Positions 1 to 10,808 of a stretch of DNA of 35,975 bases are shown here, piece by piece (the stretch's first letter is position 1; each line of letters starts with the position of its first letter). The notes beneath the pieces are model-generated. The model did not search any database and was not told the origin of the DNA. It worked only from the letters and a program-made list of their open reading frames with translations. Both the position numbers and the translations under genes were made by a program. Source of the stretch: an uncultured Maribacter sp. (GTDB taxonomy: Bacteria > Bacteroidota > Bacteroidia > Flavobacteriales > Flavobacteriaceae); the NCBI GenBank assembly GCA_938038975.1, contig CALHVP010000111.1, forward strand, positions 1 to 35,975, given 5' to 3'.

Positions 1-1800
1 ATATTTTGAAGGAACTCGAGAAATATCTATCTCCTTACCCTTTCTGTATATAAGATTTTTTAATTCTAAGGACACTATATCTTTCACAGAAGCAGGAGCT
101 AAATCTGGTTTAAAATTTAGATTCAATAATTCTACATATCGTTTTAAACCCTCCTTATAATTCCCGTTTTGAATATGAACATTAGCTAAATCTCTAAAGG
201 GCTGTATGCTATTACTGTCTAAGCTAACTATTTGCTCATAAATAGCTAATGCTTGTTTATAGCGTTCTGCTTTTTGATGATAAAAAGCTATGGTTCGTAG
301 TGCAGCAATAGAATTAGTTGAAACTTCTAAAGCAGAATTTAGAATATTTTCTGCCACAGCTGTATCAGAAGCTTCAAACAAATTATGTACATCTATAAAG
401 TAATAAGGGTCGTTAAAGTAATCACCTCTTTCTTTAATGTATGTGGCGTATGAATCTGTTAGAGTAGGTTGTGACCTAATATTTTTTAAATACGCCTTAT
501 TTGTAGCAAAGGACGCAACTTTTAAATCGCCAGTAAAAGTATTATTACGTAGTAGCGCACTATTGTTAGCTTTCGTATCATTTTTCTCACTGAGCTTTAC
601 ATCACCATAACGCGTTTGTACCAATATAACTCCGTTTGAACCCTCACCGCCATAAAAATTGGTAGCCGCTAATCCTTTAAGAACCTTTACAGAAACGATA
701 TCATTTGGATTTACCATATTTAAAATATCCGCATTTACATTACGCTGGCCTGTAAATTCTGCTTTAGGCATAGGAGCACCATCTATAATAATAAGTGGGA
801 AATTAGAATACTCTATACTAGAAAAACCTCTAATAATAGACCTGCCAAAACCATCCTTATTCGTTTGAACACCAGAAACCTTGCCGGCTAAAGATTCATT
901 TAACGAACCACTACTTACCGTTAAATCCTTCTTATCTATGGTTTGAATACCCCCGTAGCCTAGTACTTTTTCCTTTGGCAGCCATTTTATTTTTTCTTTT
1001 TGCACTAGAATAACTTCATCTAAATTTTCTGTGGCATCCTCTAAGGTTACTTCTATAAATCTAGACTTTGTACGAATAGGCAAGGTAACGGCTCGTTTGC
1101 CTAAGAACTGAAATAATATACTATCTCCTTCAACAACTTTTATAGCAAAACTACCATCTGCAATGGTCAAAGTACCTTCGTTAGTACCCTTTATGATAAT
1201 GGCTACATCTTCTAAAGGTCCGTTTAAATCACTAACCAAGCCATTAACCACTATCTGCTCTAAGTTACTTCTTAGCTTACGCCTATTACTGGCACTATTT
1301 TTACTTTCAGGTAGCAAGCCATTATATTCACCAATAGAATATAAAGAGAGTTTTTCTAAAATAGGGTTGCAGTTACCTGTGGCACAAATCACATCCATTT
1401 TAGATTTGCCATAGTGCAATTTCAATTCTTTTAATCTTGGATAACCATCTGTAAATAAAAGTGATGGCAAGTCGCTATATTCTTTGAGTAGGAAATCCAT
1501 ATCAGATATACCATCATACCCTATTCTGGACAAATAAGTACTAAGATTAGATAGACTATCATCTGCCAAAGTAAACTCTTTAGCACTGTTGATACCATTA
1601 GAGAATTCAACTAGAATAATACTTTTTACATTGTTTGTTTTAACGTACTCCTGTAAGAATAAAATCTCCTTTTCTAAATCTCGCTGTTCCATAGAAAGCG
1701 ATACATCCCAGTAAACTTTTACTTTAGTACTACTGGTTTGCCCATGCAAGCGTATAGTTGTTAAAACGAGTAAAAGAAGAAATAAGAAACGTGTCATCAT
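1..1800 (-). CDS. vWA / carboxypeptidase-regulatory / TonB-plug / TPR hybrid protein (3' part outside window)
   Basis: Reading from the ATG at 1800 down to base 1 gives 600 uninterrupted codons; the C-terminus lies outside the window. A hydrophobic signal peptide (about 1-20, ending LHGQ) points to export. Residues about 27-145 resemble a von Willebrand A domain: a MIDAS-type DVSLS at 32-36 and an FTDG motif ending at 119. A CarboxypepD_reg-like beta domain follows (about 184-250). Then comes a full SusC-type TonB plug (about 282-398) with GYG, IRGFSS, IIDGAP, VKVLKG and NGVILVQT signatures. Instead of a 22-strand barrel, the chain continues into TPR-like helices (about 475-560). It starts 9 nt after the M24 peptidase stop, so the two are probably co-transcribed. 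I do not know the function. A receptor is unlikely because no barrel is visible, although the unseen C-terminus could change this. Confidence 0.85.
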   Translation of the reverse strand, partial: MMTRFLFLLLLVLTTIRLHGQTSSTKVKVYWDVSLSMEQRDLEKEILFLQEYVKTNNVKSIILVEFSNGINSAKEFTLADDSLSNLSTYLSRIGYDGISDMDFLLKEYSDLPSLLFTDGYPRLKELKLHYGKSKMDVICATGNCNPILEKLSLYSIGEYNGLLPESKNSASNRRKLRSNLEQIVVNGLVSDLNGPLEDVAIIIKGTNEGTLTIADGSFAIKVVEGDSILFQFLGKRAVTLPIRTKSRFIEVTLEDATENLDEVILVQKEKIKWLPKEKVLGYGGIQTIDKKDLTVSSGSLNESLAGKVSGVQTNKDGFGRSIIRGFSSIEYSNFPLIIIDGAPMPKAEFTGQRNVNADILNMVNPNDIVSVKVLKGLAATNFYGGEGSNGVILVQTRYGDVKLSEKNDTKANNSALLRNNTFTGDLKVASFATNKAYLKNIRSQPTLTDSYATYIKERGDYFNDPYYFIDVHNLFEASDTAVAENILNSALEVSTNSIAALRTIAFYHQKAERYKQALAIYEQIVSLDSNSIQPFRDLANVHIQNGNYKEGLKRYVELLNLNFKPDLAPASVKDIVSLELKNLIYRKGKEIDISRVPSKY

Positions 1801-1809
1801 AGATTTCAA

Positions 1810-3156
1810 TTAATTCCCTTGATGAGTTGCAACTCTTGGCACCAACAACAATTCTGTTTGACGGCCATTTACATATCTAAAGCCATCTTCGCCATAAAAG
1901 CCTGCTTCTTCTAACATAATACGTATATCCTTATTCCACTCAGGTAAGGTGACCGTAGTATTTAATTCTATAGCATAAACCGTATTGTAATTTAGAGGCC
2001 AATTATCTGCATCGTCTTTACGGAGTCCGCCTTGGGCGTCCCACATACCAATTGTAGTCCCAGCAGAATGTCCGTAAGAGCCAAGAGGGTGTGTGTAAAT
2101 TGAAGGTCTTAATCCTACTGCTTTAGCCTCTCCTAAAGCAGTTAGTAGTATTTCATTTCCTACCCTACCCTTTTTCATATTGTTAGTTAAGAAATCTTGT
2201 ACTCGATTGCCATCTTTAAGTGCATTTACTAAGTAGCCTGGCGCTTCTTTTTCCTCTGGTTTTAGCACATATGCTAATTCTTGACAATCTGTATTTAATC
2301 TTAAATACGTTATACCAAAATCACAATGTAAAAGATCACCAGGCATAATAATCATCTCATCTGGCTTATCTGCGAACGAGTAGAAATTAGCATCATTTTT
2401 ATTACTTGTGCGTTGCACATCTACTGTTGGGTGAAACCATGTTTCCAAGCCCATGTCTGTAACTTTCTGACGCATCCACCAAACTACATCTGTAGTCTTA
2501 GTTACTCCTGGGGTAATCACTTTCTCTGAAAATGCCTCGGCAATAATGTCATGGGTAACAGCTACCAATTGATTAAAAATAATCATCTCACGATTGGTCC
2601 GTGTTTCTATCCATCTAACAGCTAACTGTTCTGCCGATACTACTTTAGAATGCATGCTTTTAGGAAGATTCTCCATAAATGCATCATAATCTGTCTTATC
2701 TAATCCGTCAGCAATGTTATGATCCTTAGAAAAGTTAAGTCCAATTGAATTTGGATTCCGTTCTTTAATAAGTTGTATTAAACGCTTCCATTGATTAGGC
2801 TCTTCCTCCTTGTTCCAAGCAGATTTAATGTTCTTACCTACATTGTAACGTGCAACTGCTAATTTCTCAATTGTATTTTTTGACTGGTTCCGATAGAACA
2901 CTAAAATGGTACGTCTTCTTGCATTTAACCAAGTAGAAGGCAGCATGGTCCTAAGCACAGGGTCTTCATTATACTCTCTAGAAATAACAACCCACATATC
3001 TATACCAGAAGCATCCATAAGTTCTGGCAACAAGTTATTGAAACGGTCGTCCAAAATCTCATCTACGACTTTAGCTCTATCGGCTTCTGGAAGAATTTGT
3101 TGTGCATTGAGCTGGATAGTTAAAAATATAAGGGATAATCGCAAAAGGTTTTTCAT
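1810..3156 (-). CDS. Secreted M24-family metallopeptidase (Xaa-Pro aminopeptidase-like)
   Basis: 448 aa with a signal peptide at about 1-18 (ends LNAQ). The N-terminal half matches a creatinase/prolidase-like domain and the C-terminal half (about 190-435) has the pita-bread M24 fold. Metal ligands are visible: D279 and D290 with the 11-residue spacing seen in PepP, a His at 363 (GHSAG) or 356, E397 (AIELNT) and E416/E417 (MLEEAG). The set is complete, so a di-metal enzyme acting on peptides with a penultimate proline, or a related dipeptidase, is likely; the substrate cannot be read from sequence. Export to the periplasm is inferred from the leader. It lies 78 nt downstream of the plug-only gene and 9 nt upstream of the vWA/plug hybrid, which suggests one transcript. 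Confidence 0.9.
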   Translation of the reverse strand: MKNLLRLSLIFLTIQLNAQQILPEADRAKVVDEILDDRFNNLLPELMDASGIDMWVVISREYNEDPVLRTMLPSTWLNARRRTILVFYRNQSKNTIEKLAVARYNVGKNIKSAWNKEEEPNQWKRLIQLIKERNPNSIGLNFSKDHNIADGLDKTDYDAFMENLPKSMHSKVVSAEQLAVRWIETRTNREMIIFNQLVAVTHDIIAEAFSEKVITPGVTKTTDVVWWMRQKVTDMGLETWFHPTVDVQRTSNKNDANFYSFADKPDEMIIMPGDLLHCDFGITYLRLNTDCQELAYVLKPEEKEAPGYLVNALKDGNRVQDFLTNNMKKGRVGNEILLTALGEAKAVGLRPSIYTHPLGSYGHSAGTTIGMWDAQGGLRKDDADNWPLNYNTVYAIELNTTVTLPEWNKDIRIMLEEAGFYGEDGFRYVNGRQTELLLVPRVATHQGN

Positions 3157-3234
3157 GCTTGGATTTGTTTAAGTCATGAAAATACAAAATTTAAAAACCT
3201 TTACATAGTCCACTTTACATTCTGGAAACGAATT

Positions 3235-3648
3235 TTATTGGTTTCTAAAATAGGTTCTTGCACCTAGATTGTTAGAAACCTTTACACTCTCAATATCTGC
3301 TGGATTAAGCACACTTAAAATAGACTTGTCATATCGTACGCCATCAACAATGACCATTGTGTCGTCGCCTCCTCTAATGCGCATGGTTAGCGAGGTATTC
3401 ATCTCATCTACACCAGTAATAACGATACCTGGTACTTGGGCCCTAACATCATTATACACATCTTGCTGTCTTGACCATACAGTATGCGTGGGCATTACCG
3501 TAAAAACTTTAAACGCATTTTCAGTAGTATTCTTTATTGGTTGTATTTCAAAATTCATAGGAACTACATCTGCTGTATTCTTTTCAACAGTTTGAGAAAA
3601 ACCCATTAATGATATTGCAAAAACGAGGGTAGTTAAAATAGCTTTCAT
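3235..3648 (-). CDS. Small secreted TonB plug-domain-only protein
   Basis: 137 aa with a signal peptide (about 1-19, MGFSQ cleavage region). Residues about 60-130 carry the SusC plug signatures: VRAQVPGIVI, MRIRGG, VIVDGVRYD and NPADIESVKV. The protein stops right after the position where plugs normally show a YGxxGxNGVI strand, here replaced by ARTYFRNQ and a stop. So it is a plug with no barrel and without its last conserved strand. This could be a remnant of a receptor gene, but the reading frame, signal peptide and codon use are clean and it heads a compact operon with M24 and vWA/plug genes. A soluble periplasmic decoy, chaperone or partner of the vWA/plug protein is possible; this is inference. 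Confidence 0.8.
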   Translation of the reverse strand: MKAILTTLVFAISLMGFSQTVEKNTADVVPMNFEIQPIKNTTENAFKVFTVMPTHTVWSRQQDVYNDVRAQVPGIVITGVDEMNTSLTMRIRGGDDTMVIVDGVRYDKSILSVLNPADIESVKVSNNLGARTYFRNQ

Positions 3649-3712
3649 CTTATAGTATTTTTAGATTGAATATAAAGCTCGTATTTATAAGCGTCTTTTT
3701 GAACAATTAATT

Positions 3713-3745
3713 AGGGAACGCTACTTTTCAATGAGGGAACGCTAC
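3713..3745 (-). promoter_or_regulatory. 12-bp direct repeat, period 21 bp; candidate LytTR-type operator
   Basis: AGGGAACGCTAC occurs at 3713-3724 and again, identically, at 3734-3745 (minus-strand reading GTAGCGTTCCCT). The 21-bp period equals two helical turns, so both copies face the same side of the DNA. That is the architecture of LytTR regulator sites (about 9-bp direct repeats with 12-13-bp spacers). The pair lies 65-97 nt upstream of the plug-only gene start and directly behind the menE stop. The binding protein is inferred. Confidence 0.5.
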
Positions 3746-3746
3746 C

Positions 3747-4823
3747 TCAAATTATTGATATGGTTTTAAAACGGTCTATTTTACCATTTTTAGTATCCAA
3801 AAATTTAGGAACTAAAAAGATATTTTTAGGAATTTGGTATTTAGAAAGAGTGGTTAGCGAAGCTATTTGTTCTTGAAGATTTGTTAGTGCTAGTTCTCCT
3901 TCAATCAAAAGGACCAATTTTTGACCCAACATTTTATCTGGTACTCCAGCAACAAAAAAACGTTGAGAAATTAGATGCGACAGTAGCGCTTCAATTTGTT
4001 CAGGAATTAGTTTTATACCTCCAGAATTAATAACAGTATCAAATCTACCCAACCATTTGAATTGGGTATTTGAGACTAAATCAACAATGTCGTTAGTCAG
4101 AACTAAACTATCCGATACTTTAGGAGCGTCTATGATTAAACATTCCCTACTGTCTATTGAAAGTATGACGTTTGGAACAGCTTTGAAAAGATTTTCCTGT
4201 TCCTTTTCTGCATGCTCAAAATGATTTACCTGCTTCACTGCGATATGAGTAATGGTCTCAGTCATCCCATAGGTCTCAAAAATTTTAGTCCTTATTTGAG
4301 ATACTTGACTCTTTAAATCTTCTGAAATGGGAGCTCCACCTACAATAAGGGAATGAATACCTCCAATATACTTAATAGAATTTCTTAACTGCAAAGGCAC
4401 CATAGCAGCAAAATCATAGCTCACTTGTATACCTTCTAAAGGGTTTGATGTTGGATTTACGCAAGTTAATCTTAGGCCTAAAACCATAGCTCTAACTAAC
4501 ATCATCTTACCCGCTATAAAATCCGCTGGTAAACACAGTAGCGCTGTACTCCCGGATTCTAATCCAAAAAAGCTACCTGTGGCCAGAGCAGAATTAATCA
4601 TGTGTTCCTTCTTGATTAGTATAGCTTTAGGCGCACCTGTGGAACCAGATGTGTTAACTATTAAGGTCGTTGAGGCAGATAACCAATCTAAAATAAAATC
4701 ACCAATGGGTACTTCATATGGCTCCCCTTCTTTTACAAGGCTATATGCATACTCCTTAAGTTCTTTGATTGAGTAGGAGTTTCCGTTAAATTGAAAATTA
4801 GAATGTAAGACGAATGTTTCCAC
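3747..4823 (-). CDS. menE: o-Succinylbenzoate-CoA ligase MenE
   Basis: 358 aa AMP-forming acyl-CoA synthetase. The phosphate-binding loop TSGSTGAPK is at 58-66, YGMTET at 185-190, the WLGRFD hinge region near 258-262, and the catalytic lysine of GKIDR at 348. It activates o-succinylbenzoate to its CoA thioester in menaquinone synthesis. It is about 100 residues shorter than Bacillus MenE because the N-terminal subdomain is reduced; I believe short forms are usual in Bacteroidota. The start is GTG at 4823, directly abutting the TAA stop of the CPBP gene with no gap, which points to translational coupling. Its place after menC supports the assignment over other ligases. Confidence 0.93.
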   Translation of the reverse strand: METFVLHSNFQFNGNSYSIKELKEYAYSLVKEGEPYEVPIGDFILDWLSASTTLIVNTSGSTGAPKAILIKKEHMINSALATGSFFGLESGSTALLCLPADFIAGKMMLVRAMVLGLRLTCVNPTSNPLEGIQVSYDFAAMVPLQLRNSIKYIGGIHSLIVGGAPISEDLKSQVSQIRTKIFETYGMTETITHIAVKQVNHFEHAEKEQENLFKAVPNVILSIDSRECLIIDAPKVSDSLVLTNDIVDLVSNTQFKWLGRFDTVINSGGIKLIPEQIEALLSHLISQRFFVAGVPDKMLGQKLVLLIEGELALTNLQEQIASLTTLSKYQIPKNIFLVPKFLDTKNGKIDRFKTISII

Positions 4824-5780
4824 TTATTCTAATTGTTTGGATGTAAATTCTTCTTCTGAAAGTACTTTTCCAGTAAGCTTTTCCTTCCAGTTATTCCAAT
4901 TGTACATTTGAGAAAATATAAAGAGAAGAATAGGGAAAACCACAAAAACAGGAATTAGAACATCCCATCCTAAAACCGGGTCAGAAACATCTCTATATAC
5001 AGAATGTGTTTGGAAGGCAGTCCAATCTGCAGTAACCAGTAACGCAGCGGTTAGATTGTTGGCAGCATGAAACCCTAAGGCCAATTCCAGACCCTCATCC
5101 ATAAGGGTTATGATACCCAGAAAAAAACCTGTACCAATGTAAAATATTAAAATACCGTATCCTAGCTTTTGAATTTCAGGATTAAAAATGTGCATCAATC
5201 CAAAAAGCAAAGAGGTGAAAACCAAAGGAAACCATCTATTTTTAACAGCAACACCTAATCCCTGCATCATATAACCTCGAATGAAGTACTCTTCCATACT
5301 GGTTTGTATTGGAATCATAATAATAGCAATTACAGCCAATATAAGAAACGGCTCTAAGTTGAAATTAAATTCGTAATCCTCGGGCGACATATACATATCT
5401 AAAAAGATAAATAGCACCGAAATAAATGCCCAAAGCCCAAAAGCAACTAATACCCTTGCCCAATCTACTTTTTTTCTAGAAGTAGTTAGTGCTGTCAGCG
5501 TTTGCTTATGAATTAATTTCACCATTAAAAAAAGGAACAAAAGCCCAATAGCAAAGGTCAATAGCATATAAAATAAAAAGCTATTTGAACCTAATGCGTT
5601 AGACAATATACCGATATCTTGACCAGCCTTTGCTAAAATTGCTATAGAACCAGTTTTTATAACCAATGCTGCTATTAAAGGAACACCACCAAGCACTTGC
5701 CAACCAAAAAACACTAGTATTATCCCAATTACATATCGCCAACTTTCGCTTAATCCTTTGTATGCCTGTTCTATATACAT
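4824..5780 (-). CDS. CPBP-family intramembrane metalloprotease
   Basis: 318 aa, mostly hydrophobic, with about seven or eight predicted membrane helices. CPBP (CAAX protease / bacteriocin-processing) motifs are present in order: EEYFIRG with E163, E164 and R168; FGLMH with H197; and HAANN with H238. The catalytic set for a glutamate/histidine-dependent membrane protease is therefore intact. The gene start overlaps the menC stop by 10 nt, and its stop abuts the menE start, so it is tightly embedded in a men operon. Its substrate is unknown. The location suggests a role tied to the quinone or prenyl pathway or simply to membrane quality control; that link is inference. Confidence 0.9.
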   Translation of the reverse strand: MYIEQAYKGLSESWRYVIGIILVFFGWQVLGGVPLIAALVIKTGSIAILAKAGQDIGILSNALGSNSFLFYMLLTFAIGLLFLFLMVKLIHKQTLTALTTSRKKVDWARVLVAFGLWAFISVLFIFLDMYMSPEDYEFNFNLEPFLILAVIAIIMIPIQTSMEEYFIRGYMMQGLGVAVKNRWFPLVFTSLLFGLMHIFNPEIQKLGYGILIFYIGTGFFLGIITLMDEGLELALGFHAANNLTAALLVTADWTAFQTHSVYRDVSDPVLGWDVLIPVFVVFPILLFIFSQMYNWNNWKEKLTGKVLSEEEFTSKQLE

Positions 5781-6823
5781 AAATCTGAAATTAAATGTTC
5801 TTGCCAGTTTTTAGATGTATCATAATAGATTCCTCCATTAGCTACAACCAAAGGACTAGTAAAATTATTAGTAAACAACGAACCTGTTCCCAAACCTTGT
5901 GGTAAAGGATTGTCTAATACAGCAGTCCATTGTGCTATGGCGTTAAGTCCTATATTACTTTCTAAGGCACTTGTAACCCACCACCCTATATTATTCTTAT
6001 CTGCTGCAGCTATCCATTCCTGACTACCTTGAAAACCTCCAACCAAACTAGGCTTTAATATAATATATTGAGGTTGTATGGTTTTTAATAACAGTTCCTT
6101 TTGTGCTAATTCCGTTATTCCTATAAGCTCCTCGTCTAAGGCAATGGGTAACGGAGTTTGTTGACACAAATTTTTCATTTCTTCCCATTGACCCTGCTTA
6201 ATGGGCTGCTCAATAGAATGCAAATCTAATTGAGACAACATAGTTAGCTTCTTTAGCGCATCATTTGGAGAAAATGCACCGTTAGCATCTACACGTAATT
6301 CAATCTGATCGCTGTCAAAATTTTTCCTTATTGATTCTAAAAGTCTTATTTCTGACTTAAAATCTATAGCTCCAATCTTCATTTTAATACAACGGAAGCC
6401 CTGTTCTAATTTCTGTTGAAGCTGCTCTTTCATAAACGCAGTATCACCCATCCAAATAAGTCCGTTGATTTCAACAGGGTTTTCAGATGTAGTAAAACCA
6501 GAAGGAAAAAGCTCAAACGAATCTGTAGACGCTAATGAAAGTAAAGCCTGCTCTAAGCCAAACTGGATACTAGGAAATTTTTGCAAAGATTTAAGCAGAC
6601 TATCTTTTTCTAAATTTATGTTCGAAACCAGCCACTCAAGCTGCTCCTCATAATTTGGAACATCATCATAACTTAAGCCCCTAAACATGCCACATTCACC
6701 TATTCCATAGCGACCATTTTCCTCCAAAACTAGAAACCAAGTTTCCTTAGTTTTTAAAATTCCGCGCGATGTCCCGCTTGGATTCTTAAAATTTAAAATA
6801 TACTTTTTATACTTCGCTTTCAT
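5771..6823 (-). CDS. menC: o-Succinylbenzoate synthase MenC
   Basis: 350 aa enolase-superfamily enzyme that dehydrates SHCHC to o-succinylbenzoate. The catalytic barrel shows KMK (K147, K149), metal ligands D179 (RVDANG), E205 (SIEQP) and D230 (LDEE), and the second catalytic lysine K257 (ILKPS). I chose the ATG at 6823 (MKAKYKKYIL) rather than the in-frame start at 6874, because homologues begin near this point and the longer version would nearly abut the divergent SDR start. The 3' end overlaps the CPBP protease start by 10 nt. The intergenic space to the divergent SDR gene is only 55 bp, so both promoters must sit in it. Confidence 0.93.
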   Translation of the reverse strand: MKAKYKKYILNFKNPSGTSRGILKTKETWFLVLEENGRYGIGECGMFRGLSYDDVPNYEEQLEWLVSNINLEKDSLLKSLQKFPSIQFGLEQALLSLASTDSFELFPSGFTTSENPVEINGLIWMGDTAFMKEQLQQKLEQGFRCIKMKIGAIDFKSEIRLLESIRKNFDSDQIELRVDANGAFSPNDALKKLTMLSQLDLHSIEQPIKQGQWEEMKNLCQQTPLPIALDEELIGITELAQKELLLKTIQPQYIILKPSLVGGFQGSQEWIAAADKNNIGWWVTSALESNIGLNAIAQWTAVLDNPLPQGLGTGSLFTNNFTSPLVVANGGIYYDTSKNWQEHLISDLCI

Positions 6824-6878
6824 ACAACGTATAAATTTAGGTATATTTTGAGTTTTAAAGAGATATAGAACCATAGTT

Positions 6879-7669: not shown

Positions 7670-9637
7670 CTATTTAAAATTAAACCAAAAGCGAACACCA
7701 TCAGACGTTCTATCTGTATTTAGATTTGTTTGTAACTGATTCGCTAGACGATTCATTAAGCGTATACCCATAGAGGAATTTGCCCGTTCTTCCGTGTCTT
7801 CCGGTAAACCAACTCCGTTATCTGTATATTCGAAGAAACCTTCCTTTCCACCAATTTTTCTTAGATGAATATAAATTTTGCCATTCTCCTCATCATTGGG
7901 AAAGGCATATTTGAATGAATTGGAAACTAATTCATTAAGTATAAGACCAAAAGGTATAGCCCTATCTATATCCAACTCAACACCCTCTGCATCAATAGTA
8001 ATATTAATATTATGACCTCCTTTTTTGTATACCGATTGTACACTATTAATAAGACTTTCTATATACCCTTGCATTTCAATCACCGATAAATCATCGTTTT
8101 GATATAACTTCTGATGGATTAATGCCATTGCTTTAACTCTACTTTTTCCTTCTTCTAAGGCAGCAATTGCAGCTTTACTTCGCGTATTTTTAGTTTGTAA
8201 ACTAAGAAGGCTAGAAACCATCTGGAGGTTATTCTTTACTCTGTGATGTATTTCTTTAAGTAAAGAATCTTTTTCTATCAAAGAATTTTCAATGATATGC
8301 TTTTGTTCGGCTATTAGGCGTTGGTTTTTTATACTTTTAAGATAGGCATAAACTAAACCAGCAAAACCAAGTAATGTAAACACTAGGGAGATAAAAACAA
8401 GGCTTATATTTTTATCTTTTTCAATAATATCTATTCTAGATTTTTCCAATTCTAACTTCTGCTCGTCGATCAAGTTTTTAGAATTTTCTGCTTCTTGACT
8501 GATAATTGCCGTAAGCTGTTGTTTTTTAATCTTTGCGTCTTTATCGTCTATAGAGTCTCGTATTCTTATGTTACGTTTTAAATATGTCGTAGAGGTCTTA
8601 TAATCTCCTGTCCTATCGTAAAGAGCGGCGTATAGCCTGTTTTTCTTTAGGATGTTTGCTGTTTTAATAGGATTATCTATTTCCGTTAAATAATCGGTGG
8701 CTTTTTCATAATCCTTTAATTGAAGGTAACAATCTGCCAGTTCTAAAGAGTTCTCAATAAAATCTGAAGAAAATTTACCCTTGCTGTATTCATCTATAAT
8801 CGCAACACTTTCTTCTAAAAATGGTATCGCAATTTCATACTCCTTTTGCAACACATGGCATTTACCAATATTTCCAAGAATTTTACCTTTTAATAAATTC
8901 GCAGAAACAAGTTCTTCATCTGTTCTAACGCTTAAAATATCATTAAAATAAACATCTAGAAACGCATTTGCCTTTTTAAAAACAGTCAAGGCAGTAGGAA
9001 CAGATTTATCTAATCTTAAATAGTTACCTACATTGTTATTATAAATTGCTTTTGCAAAAAAATCACCCTCGTCGATAGTGTTTTTTTCTTGAATGATATA
9101 ATCATTCCTAGCCTTTACATACTGTCCAAGGTTAGCGTATATATCGTAAAAGGTAATATTTTCTGTAAGCCCAAGTTCTCTCTTTTTCCTTCGGATTTCA
9201 AATTGCCTGTCAAATAATTCTAGCTTAGAATAATTGGTATCCATTAACTCTAAAATACGAGTTTTGGTTTCCAAATTATAAAGCTTAAAATCATTGTAGA
9301 GCCCTTTTGAAATAGCTAAACTCCTTTCATAATCCCCCAAATCATGATAAATCTGAGATTGAATAAGTTGATAATTCACTACCCCTATAGAATCGTTCGT
9401 TTTTTCAGCTGTATTTAAATATACGTTTACAGAATCTAACCAATCGTAAGCGGAATTTTTATTATATCTGTTCTGTACCTTGAAGAAGAAAACAGAACGC
9501 TCCATTGCGCCTGGCCTTTCCTGAAACTCTGTAAAATAATCTTTGTCTTGTGATACCGATTCTTGCGCACTAATTGTGCAAACAAACATGAAGAAAAATG
9601 CAGTTCTAATAGCCCCCAAATAAAAGTGTCTTTTCAT
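7670..9637 (-). CDS. TPR-containing sensor histidine kinase, HisKA_2 type
   Basis: 655 aa. A signal peptide (about 1-24) is followed by a long periplasmic helical region (about 45-365) with TPR-like repeats, a coiled coil (about 365-408), one membrane helix (about 411-433), and a cytoplasmic kinase. The H-box is EIHHRVKNNLQ (H464/H465), typical of HisKA_2, followed by HATPase_c with N568 (N-box) and DNGVGLP at 606-612. It is a complete kinase. The nearest response regulator is the LytTR gene upstream (start 10808, separated by 406 bp), and pairing them is a reasonable inference. It has its own promoter region, described separately. The TPR ectodomain suggests sensing through protein-protein contacts rather than a small ligand. 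Confidence 0.9.
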   Translation of the reverse strand: MKRHFYLGAIRTAFFFMFVCTISAQESVSQDKDYFTEFQERPGAMERSVFFFKVQNRYNKNSAYDWLDSVNVYLNTAEKTNDSIGVVNYQLIQSQIYHDLGDYERSLAISKGLYNDFKLYNLETKTRILELMDTNYSKLELFDRQFEIRRKKRELGLTENITFYDIYANLGQYVKARNDYIIQEKNTIDEGDFFAKAIYNNNVGNYLRLDKSVPTALTVFKKANAFLDVYFNDILSVRTDEELVSANLLKGKILGNIGKCHVLQKEYEIAIPFLEESVAIIDEYSKGKFSSDFIENSLELADCYLQLKDYEKATDYLTEIDNPIKTANILKKNRLYAALYDRTGDYKTSTTYLKRNIRIRDSIDDKDAKIKKQQLTAIISQEAENSKNLIDEQKLELEKSRIDIIEKDKNISLVFISLVFTLLGFAGLVYAYLKSIKNQRLIAEQKHIIENSLIEKDSLLKEIHHRVKNNLQMVSSLLSLQTKNTRSKAAIAALEEGKSRVKAMALIHQKLYQNDDLSVIEMQGYIESLINSVQSVYKKGGHNINITIDAEGVELDIDRAIPFGLILNELVSNSFKYAFPNDEENGKIYIHLRKIGGKEGFFEYTDNGVGLPEDTEERANSSMGIRLMNRLANQLQTNLNTDRTSDGVRFWFNFK

Positions 9638-10043: not shown

Positions 10044-10808
10044 CTATGAATTCATAGCTGAGATAATAAACTCTTTAAAGTCTTTAGAAATAGGTATGAG
10101 GGTATTATTTATCATAATATCCTTTGAGTTTATAGCATCTATATGATCCACATTTACTATGTAAGATTTATGTGCACGATAGAACTTATTCTGTGGAAGT
10201 TTTTCTAAATAATCCTTTAAAGGAGACCGAACTAAAAATTTCTTATCTACCGTATTTACCTCAAGATATACGTTATCTGCTTTGATAAATTGGATATCTC
10301 CGAACTGTATACGATAGTACAAATGTTGTTTCTTAACAAAAATGGAATCTTTTAATATTGAATTTGACATTGCAACATTATCTTCCACTTCGCCATCATT
10401 AGGGTTTGTCTTGTTTGCCGGCTGCTTACCATAAATAAAATTAGACAAGGCTATTTCTATTGAGGTATATAAATCTTGTTGCTCAAAAGGCTTTACCAAA
10501 TAACCATTTGGCTTAACAGTTTTTGCATTTTCTACCGTAGCTCTATCAGAGTTAGATGTAACGAAAATGAAAGGAATATCATAATTCTCTCTAATATGCT
10601 TTCCTAAATCTATTCCTGTTTTATCTGAAGCTAGGATGATGTCTATAAGAACTAAATCTACTTGTTTGGTTTTTAATACCTCAATAGCTTGCTCATATAC
10701 GATTACATTATCAACTATTTCATAGCCAATTTCCTCCAACATAGATTGCATATCATCAGCAATGATAACATTATCTTCTACAATAAGTATTTTAATAGCC
10801 TGCTCCAA
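10044..10808 (-). CDS. LytTR-family response regulator
   Basis: 254 aa. An N-terminal receiver domain (about 5-120) has the acidic pair at E11/D12, phospho-acceptor D56, T84 and K106 followed by proline. A linker is followed by a LytTR DNA-binding domain (about 155-252). It starts at TTG (10808): the in-frame codon two upstream is a TGA stop, so no longer form exists in this frame. An ATG seven bases upstream is out of frame and opens only a 7-codon ORF (see findings). The gene follows menA by 34 nt and is probably co-transcribed with it; the HisKA_2 kinase downstream is its likely partner. Targets are inferred from direct repeats at 3713-3745 and 9698-9725. Confidence 0.9.
   Translation of the reverse strand: MEQAIKILIVEDNVIIADDMQSMLEEIGYEIVDNVIVYEQAIEVLKTKQVDLVLIDIILASDKTGIDLGKHIRENYDIPFIFVTSNSDRATVENAKTVKPNGYLVKPFEQQDLYTSIEIALSNFIYGKQPANKTNPNDGEVEDNVAMSNSILKDSIFVKKQHLYYRIQFGDIQFIKADNVYLEVNTVDKKFLVRSPLKDYLEKLPQNKFYRAHKSYIVNVDHIDAINSKDIMINNTLIPISKDFKEFIISAMNS

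Follow-up and report, generated by a model that had tools for sequence, protein, structure and literature searches.

Barrel-less plug proteins of a Maribacter locus are encoded behind a tandem repeat that also precedes tonB and exbD genes

The window analysed here is a 35,975-nucleotide stretch from an uncultured Maribacter sp. (contig CALHVP010000111.1), a marine bacterium, and is one contig of a draft genome (G000) that is 85% complete. At its left end, three minus-strand genes encode a large vWA/plug/TPR protein, a secreted M24-family metallopeptidase-like protein, and a short free plug protein. A sequence-only reading of this DNA had proposed these genes as a compact unit, and its coordinates were reproduced, with 9 nt between the vWA/plug and M24 genes and 78 nt between the M24 and free plug genes. 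All three proteins have a signal-peptide-like N-terminal stretch (judged by eye), and the genes probably form one transcript. The plug sequence read in two of the proteins was recovered by Pfam (Plug, E 7.5e-13 in the large protein and 1.8e-06 in the free plug). Features beyond that reading are a CTD in the large protein, which is the N-terminal extension (NTE) of SusC-type receptors, a men-gene context, and a tandem repeat at 3709–3739. New here is that this repeat is common to genes for barrel-less plug proteins and, in Maribacter, to tonB and exbD. The features of the locus are as follows.

1..1809, minus strand: vWA-CTD (NTE)-Ton-box-like LDEV-plug-TPR protein; extends past the contig edge, with its first ATG at 1800; in relatives the lost end is DUF2135-like
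1810..3156, minus strand: secreted M24-family metallopeptidase-like protein (Pfam M24, E 1.7e-07)
3235..3648, minus strand: free plug protein, 137 amino acids
3709..3739, minus strand: tandem direct repeat TTCCCTCATT-N11-TTCCCTAATT, 60 nt upstream of the plug start, with LytTR-like geometry
3747..4823, minus strand: menE-like AMP-binding gene, the constant left neighbour of the slot
4824..6874, minus strand: CAAX (Rce1-like) and menC-like genes, part of the conserved context
7670..9637, minus strand: TPR-containing HisKA_2 histidine kinase, a candidate partner for the LytTR regulator
10044..10808, minus strand: LytTR response regulator (PF04397, E 8.8e-18), putative binder of the repeat

In the large protein, Pfam detects Plug, CarbopepD_reg_2 (the NTE domain), and TPR, along with a weak vWA match (E 0.009, below cut-off). 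The NTE domain precedes the plug, and together they form a SusC-like cassette spanning residues 187–474 (TIGR04056, E 6.1e-44). Near-full-query homologues with 26–29% identity are encoded by open frames of 726–743 amino acids in five Maribacter genomes (G008, G011, G014, G016, and G017). In a set of 80 named M24 loci, which are the best 80 of 568 confirmed matches and are biased to close kin, vWA and TPR-DUF2135 signals occur together in 17 frames of 677–758 amino acids (L129 is truncated by its own contig, and L122 repeats the G014 gene). None of these 17 frames contains a barrel, and their C-termini consist of TPR followed by a beta sandwich. The same architecture (vWA, CTD, plug, TPR, and C-terminal beta sandwich) is seen in an AlphaFold2 (AF2) model of a 721-residue relative, L149, with a mean predicted local distance difference test (pLDDT) score of 82.7 and mostly 66–76 in the plug. 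Structural matches of this model are vWA proteins, the best being inter-alpha-inhibitor heavy chain 1, the SusC NTE, and the SusC plug. A barrel past the window edge, which the sequence-only reading had named as one of two findings that would undo its proposal, is excluded by the complete homologous frames and the model. Metal-site residues of the vWA domain (DxSxS and [TS]DG) are present in 18/18 vWA rows, and the plug residues DG...YG...GV...T are conserved among barrel-less relatives.

Longer relatives clarify the family to which this protein belongs. A VIT-CTD-plug-TPR protein in G018 has a clear DUF2135 match (E 2e-13), and its C-terminus aligns with the ends of proteins encoded in the gene array behind M24, where DUF2135 scores only below cut-off (E 0.007–0.12). 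Three genomes of other genera (L240–L242) encode a VIT-CTD-plug-TPR-DUF2135 protein between menE and M24; vWA is found in these by our own profile in all three and by sub-threshold Pfam matches in two, and DUF2135 is above cut-off in the VIT forms. Pfam finds no VIT domain in the window protein. Given these same-slot genes and the aligned ends, the window protein is best read, from domain order, as a VIT-less form of a VIT-vWA-CTD-plug-TPR-DUF2135 family, and array proteins of ~580 amino acids are likewise best read as forms without vWA. Contig C194 of G000 has an array gene at its start and then the genes usually seen on the right-hand side; the lost end of the vWA/plug gene is thus likely to fall within a short gap in the assembly. 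In two of the loci with VIT-plug genes, a large membrane protein of ~1060 amino acids is encoded between that gene and M24 (L241:1765-4938 and L242:8034-11219).

The free plug protein has no barrel, CTD, or Ton box, and the last plug strand is absent. A four-member profile recovered this family in 12/397 Flavobacteriaceae genomes including G000 (short frames of ≤221 amino acids, E ≤ 6e-15), which rules out a one-off oddity. The next matches, from E 4e-14, are receptors of ~1000 amino acids, so that the score step is small and frame length is the clear divide; at least two short frames rank lower (159 and 212 amino acids, E ~1e-7). Among the other 35 Maribacter genomes searched there was no match of G000 strength, only two weaker short-frame matches (G009 and G024). 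The free plug gene lies directly beside menE on the same strand in 11/12 genomes, with three opposite-strand open reading frames (ORFs) intervening in the remaining one (G159). Downstream of it, within the stretches fetched, lies M24 in 9/12 genomes, either next to it or with one or two genes between, a YfbK gene without M24 in one, and neither in two; a TPR-DUF2135 gene follows M24 in eight of the free-plug genomes, in four as the vWA form. The N-terminal half of these proteins is variable and consists of a short linker, a CTD, or a second plug-like piece. The last arrangement is found in L133:9292-9924, L135:9331-9954, and L231:9461-10090, and in the first two Pfam sees the rear plug only; L135 comes from Croceivirga thetidis, a cultured relative. 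An AF2 model of the free plug is poor (mean pLDDT 56, about 56–81 over residues 45–137), and its best PDB match is a SusC plug with E 0.22.

Neighbourhood searches recovered a recurrent gene order of menC, CAAX, menE, a variable slot (slot A), M24, an array of zero to about five genes, and an opposite-strand gene, which we take to be carboxylase-like. Where slot A is occupied, its content is a YfbK-type CTD-plug-vWA gene (PF12450, PF12034), a free plug, or other small genes; in other loci it is empty. Within the 80 named loci, a TPR-DUF2135 gene directly follows M24 on the same strand in 43, eight of them with the vWA form, and YfbK and free plug genes lie at most four genes before M24 in 13 and three, respectively. 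M24 was found in 114/299 family genomes, and strong array matches in at least 85 of the 299; at least 63 of these also carry M24, at least 40 of them within 10 kb. Among the matches listed, 60/126 array places in genomes with M24 lie within 10 kb of that gene, compared with 0.7 expected randomly when kin genomes are counted as independent. The neighbourhood recurs across genera, more than chance would give, and the prospect that the genes would not be neighbours in related genomes did not come true. The exact trio is not fixed, since slot A is empty or holds YfbK in other Maribacter and the array varies, so the proposed three-gene unit stands as a conserved neighbourhood and not as a constant set.

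The M24 match is above its cut-off (31.7 bits against 23), and no solved-structure relative was found by sequence. The gene is present in 23/24 other Maribacter genomes, though fragmented in G009 and incomplete in G024, where a contig ends. The G009 locus (L118, 8021-15000) is split into many short frames, and the single contig of this genome has frame breaks elsewhere too. In L190:9283-9903 and L246–L251, from other genera, slot A encodes a secreted protein of ~200 amino acids with the repeat upstream in most; our own vWA profile matches it in L251, and Pfam gives no match.

Upstream of the free plugs lies a TTCMCTCATT-like tandem repeat with a 21-bp period and LytTR-like geometry. It is the single strong site in the window (score 29.7, next best 12.2), and a 17-base half pattern occurs there twice, against an expectation of 0.03. 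The pattern was chosen after sites were seen. Free-plug sites served to train the scoring matrix, and the counts for free plugs are therefore not independent, while those for other gene classes are. With a criterion of a matrix score ≥17 within 170 nt upstream, and with identical upstream regions dropped, the repeat precedes 11/13 free plugs, 21/30 YfbK genes, and 3/3 VIT forms, compared with 8/693 other ORFs in the neighbourhood loci. The remaining two free-plug regions carry a degenerate repeat (scores 12.5 and 5.3). No site reached this score upstream of M24 (0/114), menE (0/107), vWA-TPR (0/34), or TPR array genes (0/108). The distance from repeat to start is mostly 56–63 nt in a survey of 125 loci that include some genomes twice.

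Genome-wide searches allowing ≤2 mismatches found 155 repeat matches in 25 Maribacter genomes versus 41 for the reversed pattern used as control. Individual sites were examined among the matches listed, through G022. Checked on the DNA, these place the repeat before the slot gene, before tonB in nine Maribacter genomes (92–98 nt from the start), before exbD in at least nine (57–66 nt, or 25 nt with one longer start call), before a vWA lipoprotein gene in six (38–62 nt), and before a CTD-protein/transglutaminase operon in six (60–62 nt, or 97 with one shorter start call). Pfam confirmed TonB_C, two ExbD, VWA, CarbopepD_reg_2, and transglutaminase domains on these targets. In G003, G017, and G004, with 11, 11, and 6 matches, 14/28 precede a slot gene or one of these four targets, including all ten with ≤1 mismatch; the remaining 14 each have two mismatches, and of the 13 that were fetched, six are intragenic, five have no near gene, and two are found upstream of unrelated ORFs, at 20 and 49 nt. 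In G000 itself, 2/7 matches precede the slot gene (free plug) and tonB (contig C155), and two further sites that were fetched have no near start. The repeat appears to be a shared switch of Ton motor genes in Maribacter, and its presence before both plug-protein genes and tonB/exbD makes co-regulation of the barrel-less plug proteins with the TonB/ExbD motor probable.

Repeat-bearing tonB loci include L343, L345 (where an H+-pyrophosphatase gene adjoins), L354, L357, L362, L368, and L377, and exbD loci include L344, L346, L349, L351, L355, L359, and L376. Lipoprotein-like vWA genes with the repeat are found in L348, L350, L352, L375, L378, and L317. In L347:1822-3557 the repeat is followed by a 243-residue CTD protein and then a transglutaminase-domain protein; L353, L358, L361, and L373 are repeat-bearing loci of the same kind.

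The LytTR regulator and the HisKA_2 kinase are encoded 4–6 kb from the repeat in the window. LytTR operators have been described as direct repeats of 9–11 bp, 11–13 bp apart, upstream of the promoter (PMC6193735), and the window repeat has the same geometry (10 bp with 11 bp between) and a different sequence. The LytTR regulator may bind the repeat; given that L168, L178, and L190 contain the repeat with no kinase homologue among six genes on either side, it is a candidate only.

Among known systems, the large protein shares the order of NTE, Ton-box-like motif, and plug with SusC/RagA TonB-dependent transporters (TIGR04056; PF13715 NTE, PF07715 plug) but lacks the barrel, and the cassette is fused to vWA, TPR, and DUF2135-like domains. 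From the VIT-(vWA)-CTD-plug-TPR-DUF2135 architecture of its three same-slot relatives, which resemble bacterial VIT/vWA/DUF2135 proteins, it keeps vWA, CTD, plug, and TPR, whereas VIT is lost and DUF2135 has drifted below cut-off in derived forms. YfbK-type vWA proteins fused to CTD and plug occupy the same slot behind the same repeat, although they belong to another vWA class and are not present in the window. By description, vWA force transducers share the vWA fold and a link to 5:2 motors, but they have a helix that anchors them in the inner membrane, whereas the window proteins are secreted and carry a plug cassette; the parts of that report covered here also describe a role of the NTE in TonB contact and do not describe a plug/M24/vWA unit (PMC12204202). 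The Plug protein of the type 9 translocon, again compared by description, is a separate plug without its own barrel, as is the free plug, but its context differs (PMC7463736). Searches of open-licence literature only, which are weak evidence of absence, found no description of a plug/M24/vWA unit, and queries there for DUF2135, or for a plug domain with alpha-2-macroglobulin, TonB, and Bacteroid, returned nothing.

From these observations we tentatively read the locus, at a little short of an even chance, as an envelope module linked to TonB, whose barrel-less plug proteins would be clients of the TonB/ExbD motor. The NTE-Ton-box-like-plug cassette of SusC-type receptors, fused to vWA, TPR, and DUF2135-like domains, is encoded here together with an M24 peptidase and a shortened free plug, and the first gene stands behind an operator also used for tonB and, in relatives, exbD. 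TonB would engage the NTE/Ton-box region of the cassette proteins and load or unfold the plug; the resulting force or change of shape would reach the vWA/TPR/DUF2135 part, where an envelope partner would be held. The free plug may tune the system by competing for a plug-binding partner. In favour of this reading are the SusC-like NTE-plug cassette, with its structural matches in the L149 model, the invariant LxEV at the Ton-box position, and the repeat with its targets. The link to TonB suggested by the sequence-only reading gains independent support from the repeat common to tonB and exbD genes. The domain make-up, the absence of a barrel, the conserved neighbourhood, and the repeat with its Maribacter targets come from the computation itself, whereas LytTR binding, a single transcript, contact between TonB and the plug proteins, and any physiological role, we infer.

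Several observations weigh against this client reading. Co-regulation is not contact, and the repeat shows no enrichment in 15 genomes of other families (38 matches versus 41 reversed), which leaves Maribacter as the only genus with a known link between the repeat and tonB/exbD. One zero-mismatch site lies 57 nt before a gene for a 140-residue secreted-looking protein without Pfam match (L356:1036-1458, G011). The isolated FepA plug is reported to be unfolded (PMC11658791), and the free plug lacks the CTD and Ton box that TonB would engage. The motif itself is also ambiguous. An essential Ton box, VDEVVV, follows the NTE of Bt1763 (PMC7782687), and LxEV stands at this position in 40/40 barrel-less relatives, within a low-confidence stretch of the L149 model. 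In a control with 66 CTD matches of Maribacter G007, the strict LxEVxV-like motif follows 12/16 CTDs with a plug and a long frame (one of the 16 being an 892-residue array protein) and 1/1 with a plug and a short frame, but also 19/49 in which no plug was found; the plug profile of that control is SusC-like, so other receptors may be hidden among the plug-less rows, chiefly those with long frames. Short plug-less CTD proteins (n = 18) carry the strict motif in eight cases and at least a relaxed form in 13. The motif alone is therefore no proof of TonB contact, and the Ton box was dropped as such proof.

The wide occurrence of CTD and LxEV in plug-less proteins fits another explanation, possible if somewhat doubtful, in which the CTD-plug cassette is a reused fold, the vWA/TPR/DUF2135 proteins are TonB-independent periplasmic or secreted binders like other VIT/vWA proteins, and the operator defines one envelope regulon. 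The non-motor targets of the repeat (vWA lipoprotein and CTD/transglutaminase operon) and the best structural match of the L149 model, a vWA protein, point the same way, but scaffold reuse leaves unexplained both the retained plug fold with its DG...YG...GV...T residues and the sharing of the operator with tonB/exbD. Much less probable is that the free plug, possibly along with the longer proteins, acts as a decoy or gate, either by binding receptor barrels that lack a plug or have been opened or by titrating TonB, as the separate protein Plug seals SprA of the type 9 system (PMC7463736, PMC10994853). The 12 genomes retain free plugs of a single family as short, unbroken ORFs, but these proteins are absent from most genomes, lack the last plug strand, and give the low-confidence model described above, and the parallel to SprA Plug is drawn from descriptions and not from sequence.

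A separate issue is whether M24 belongs to the functional set or is a bystander whose position reflects ancient synteny with menE, the plug/vWA genes acting alone. We consider bystander status quite possible, though somewhat less likely than not, as M24 lies beside menE in loci without a plug or array gene (e.g. L127, L131, L134, and L143), never has the repeat upstream, and in 51/114 of its genomes comes without a strong array match among the matches listed. Conversely, the array and M24 stay together despite changed gene order in L196/L245, where no menE is listed beside them, and in L240–L243, and array places lie near M24 far more often than the random expectation, with the same counting of kin as independent.

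Under the reading of these proteins as motor clients, TonB/ExbD of Flavobacteriaceae could have a second job, which we consider unlikely but worth stating: pulling barrel-less plug/vWA/VIT/TPR/DUF2135 proteins in a force-driven envelope maintenance that may replace Tol-Pal, for which no identifiable loci are described in Bacteroidetes (PMC12204202). A plug with a Ton box is usually taken as the mark of an importer, and here a conserved set of barrel-less plug proteins is encoded behind the switch of tonB/exbD. Whether TonB pulls on non-receptors is directly testable at this simple locus, which also offers a handle on vWA/VIT/DUF2135 proteins known by domain only, and hints that the import motor may act beyond importers.

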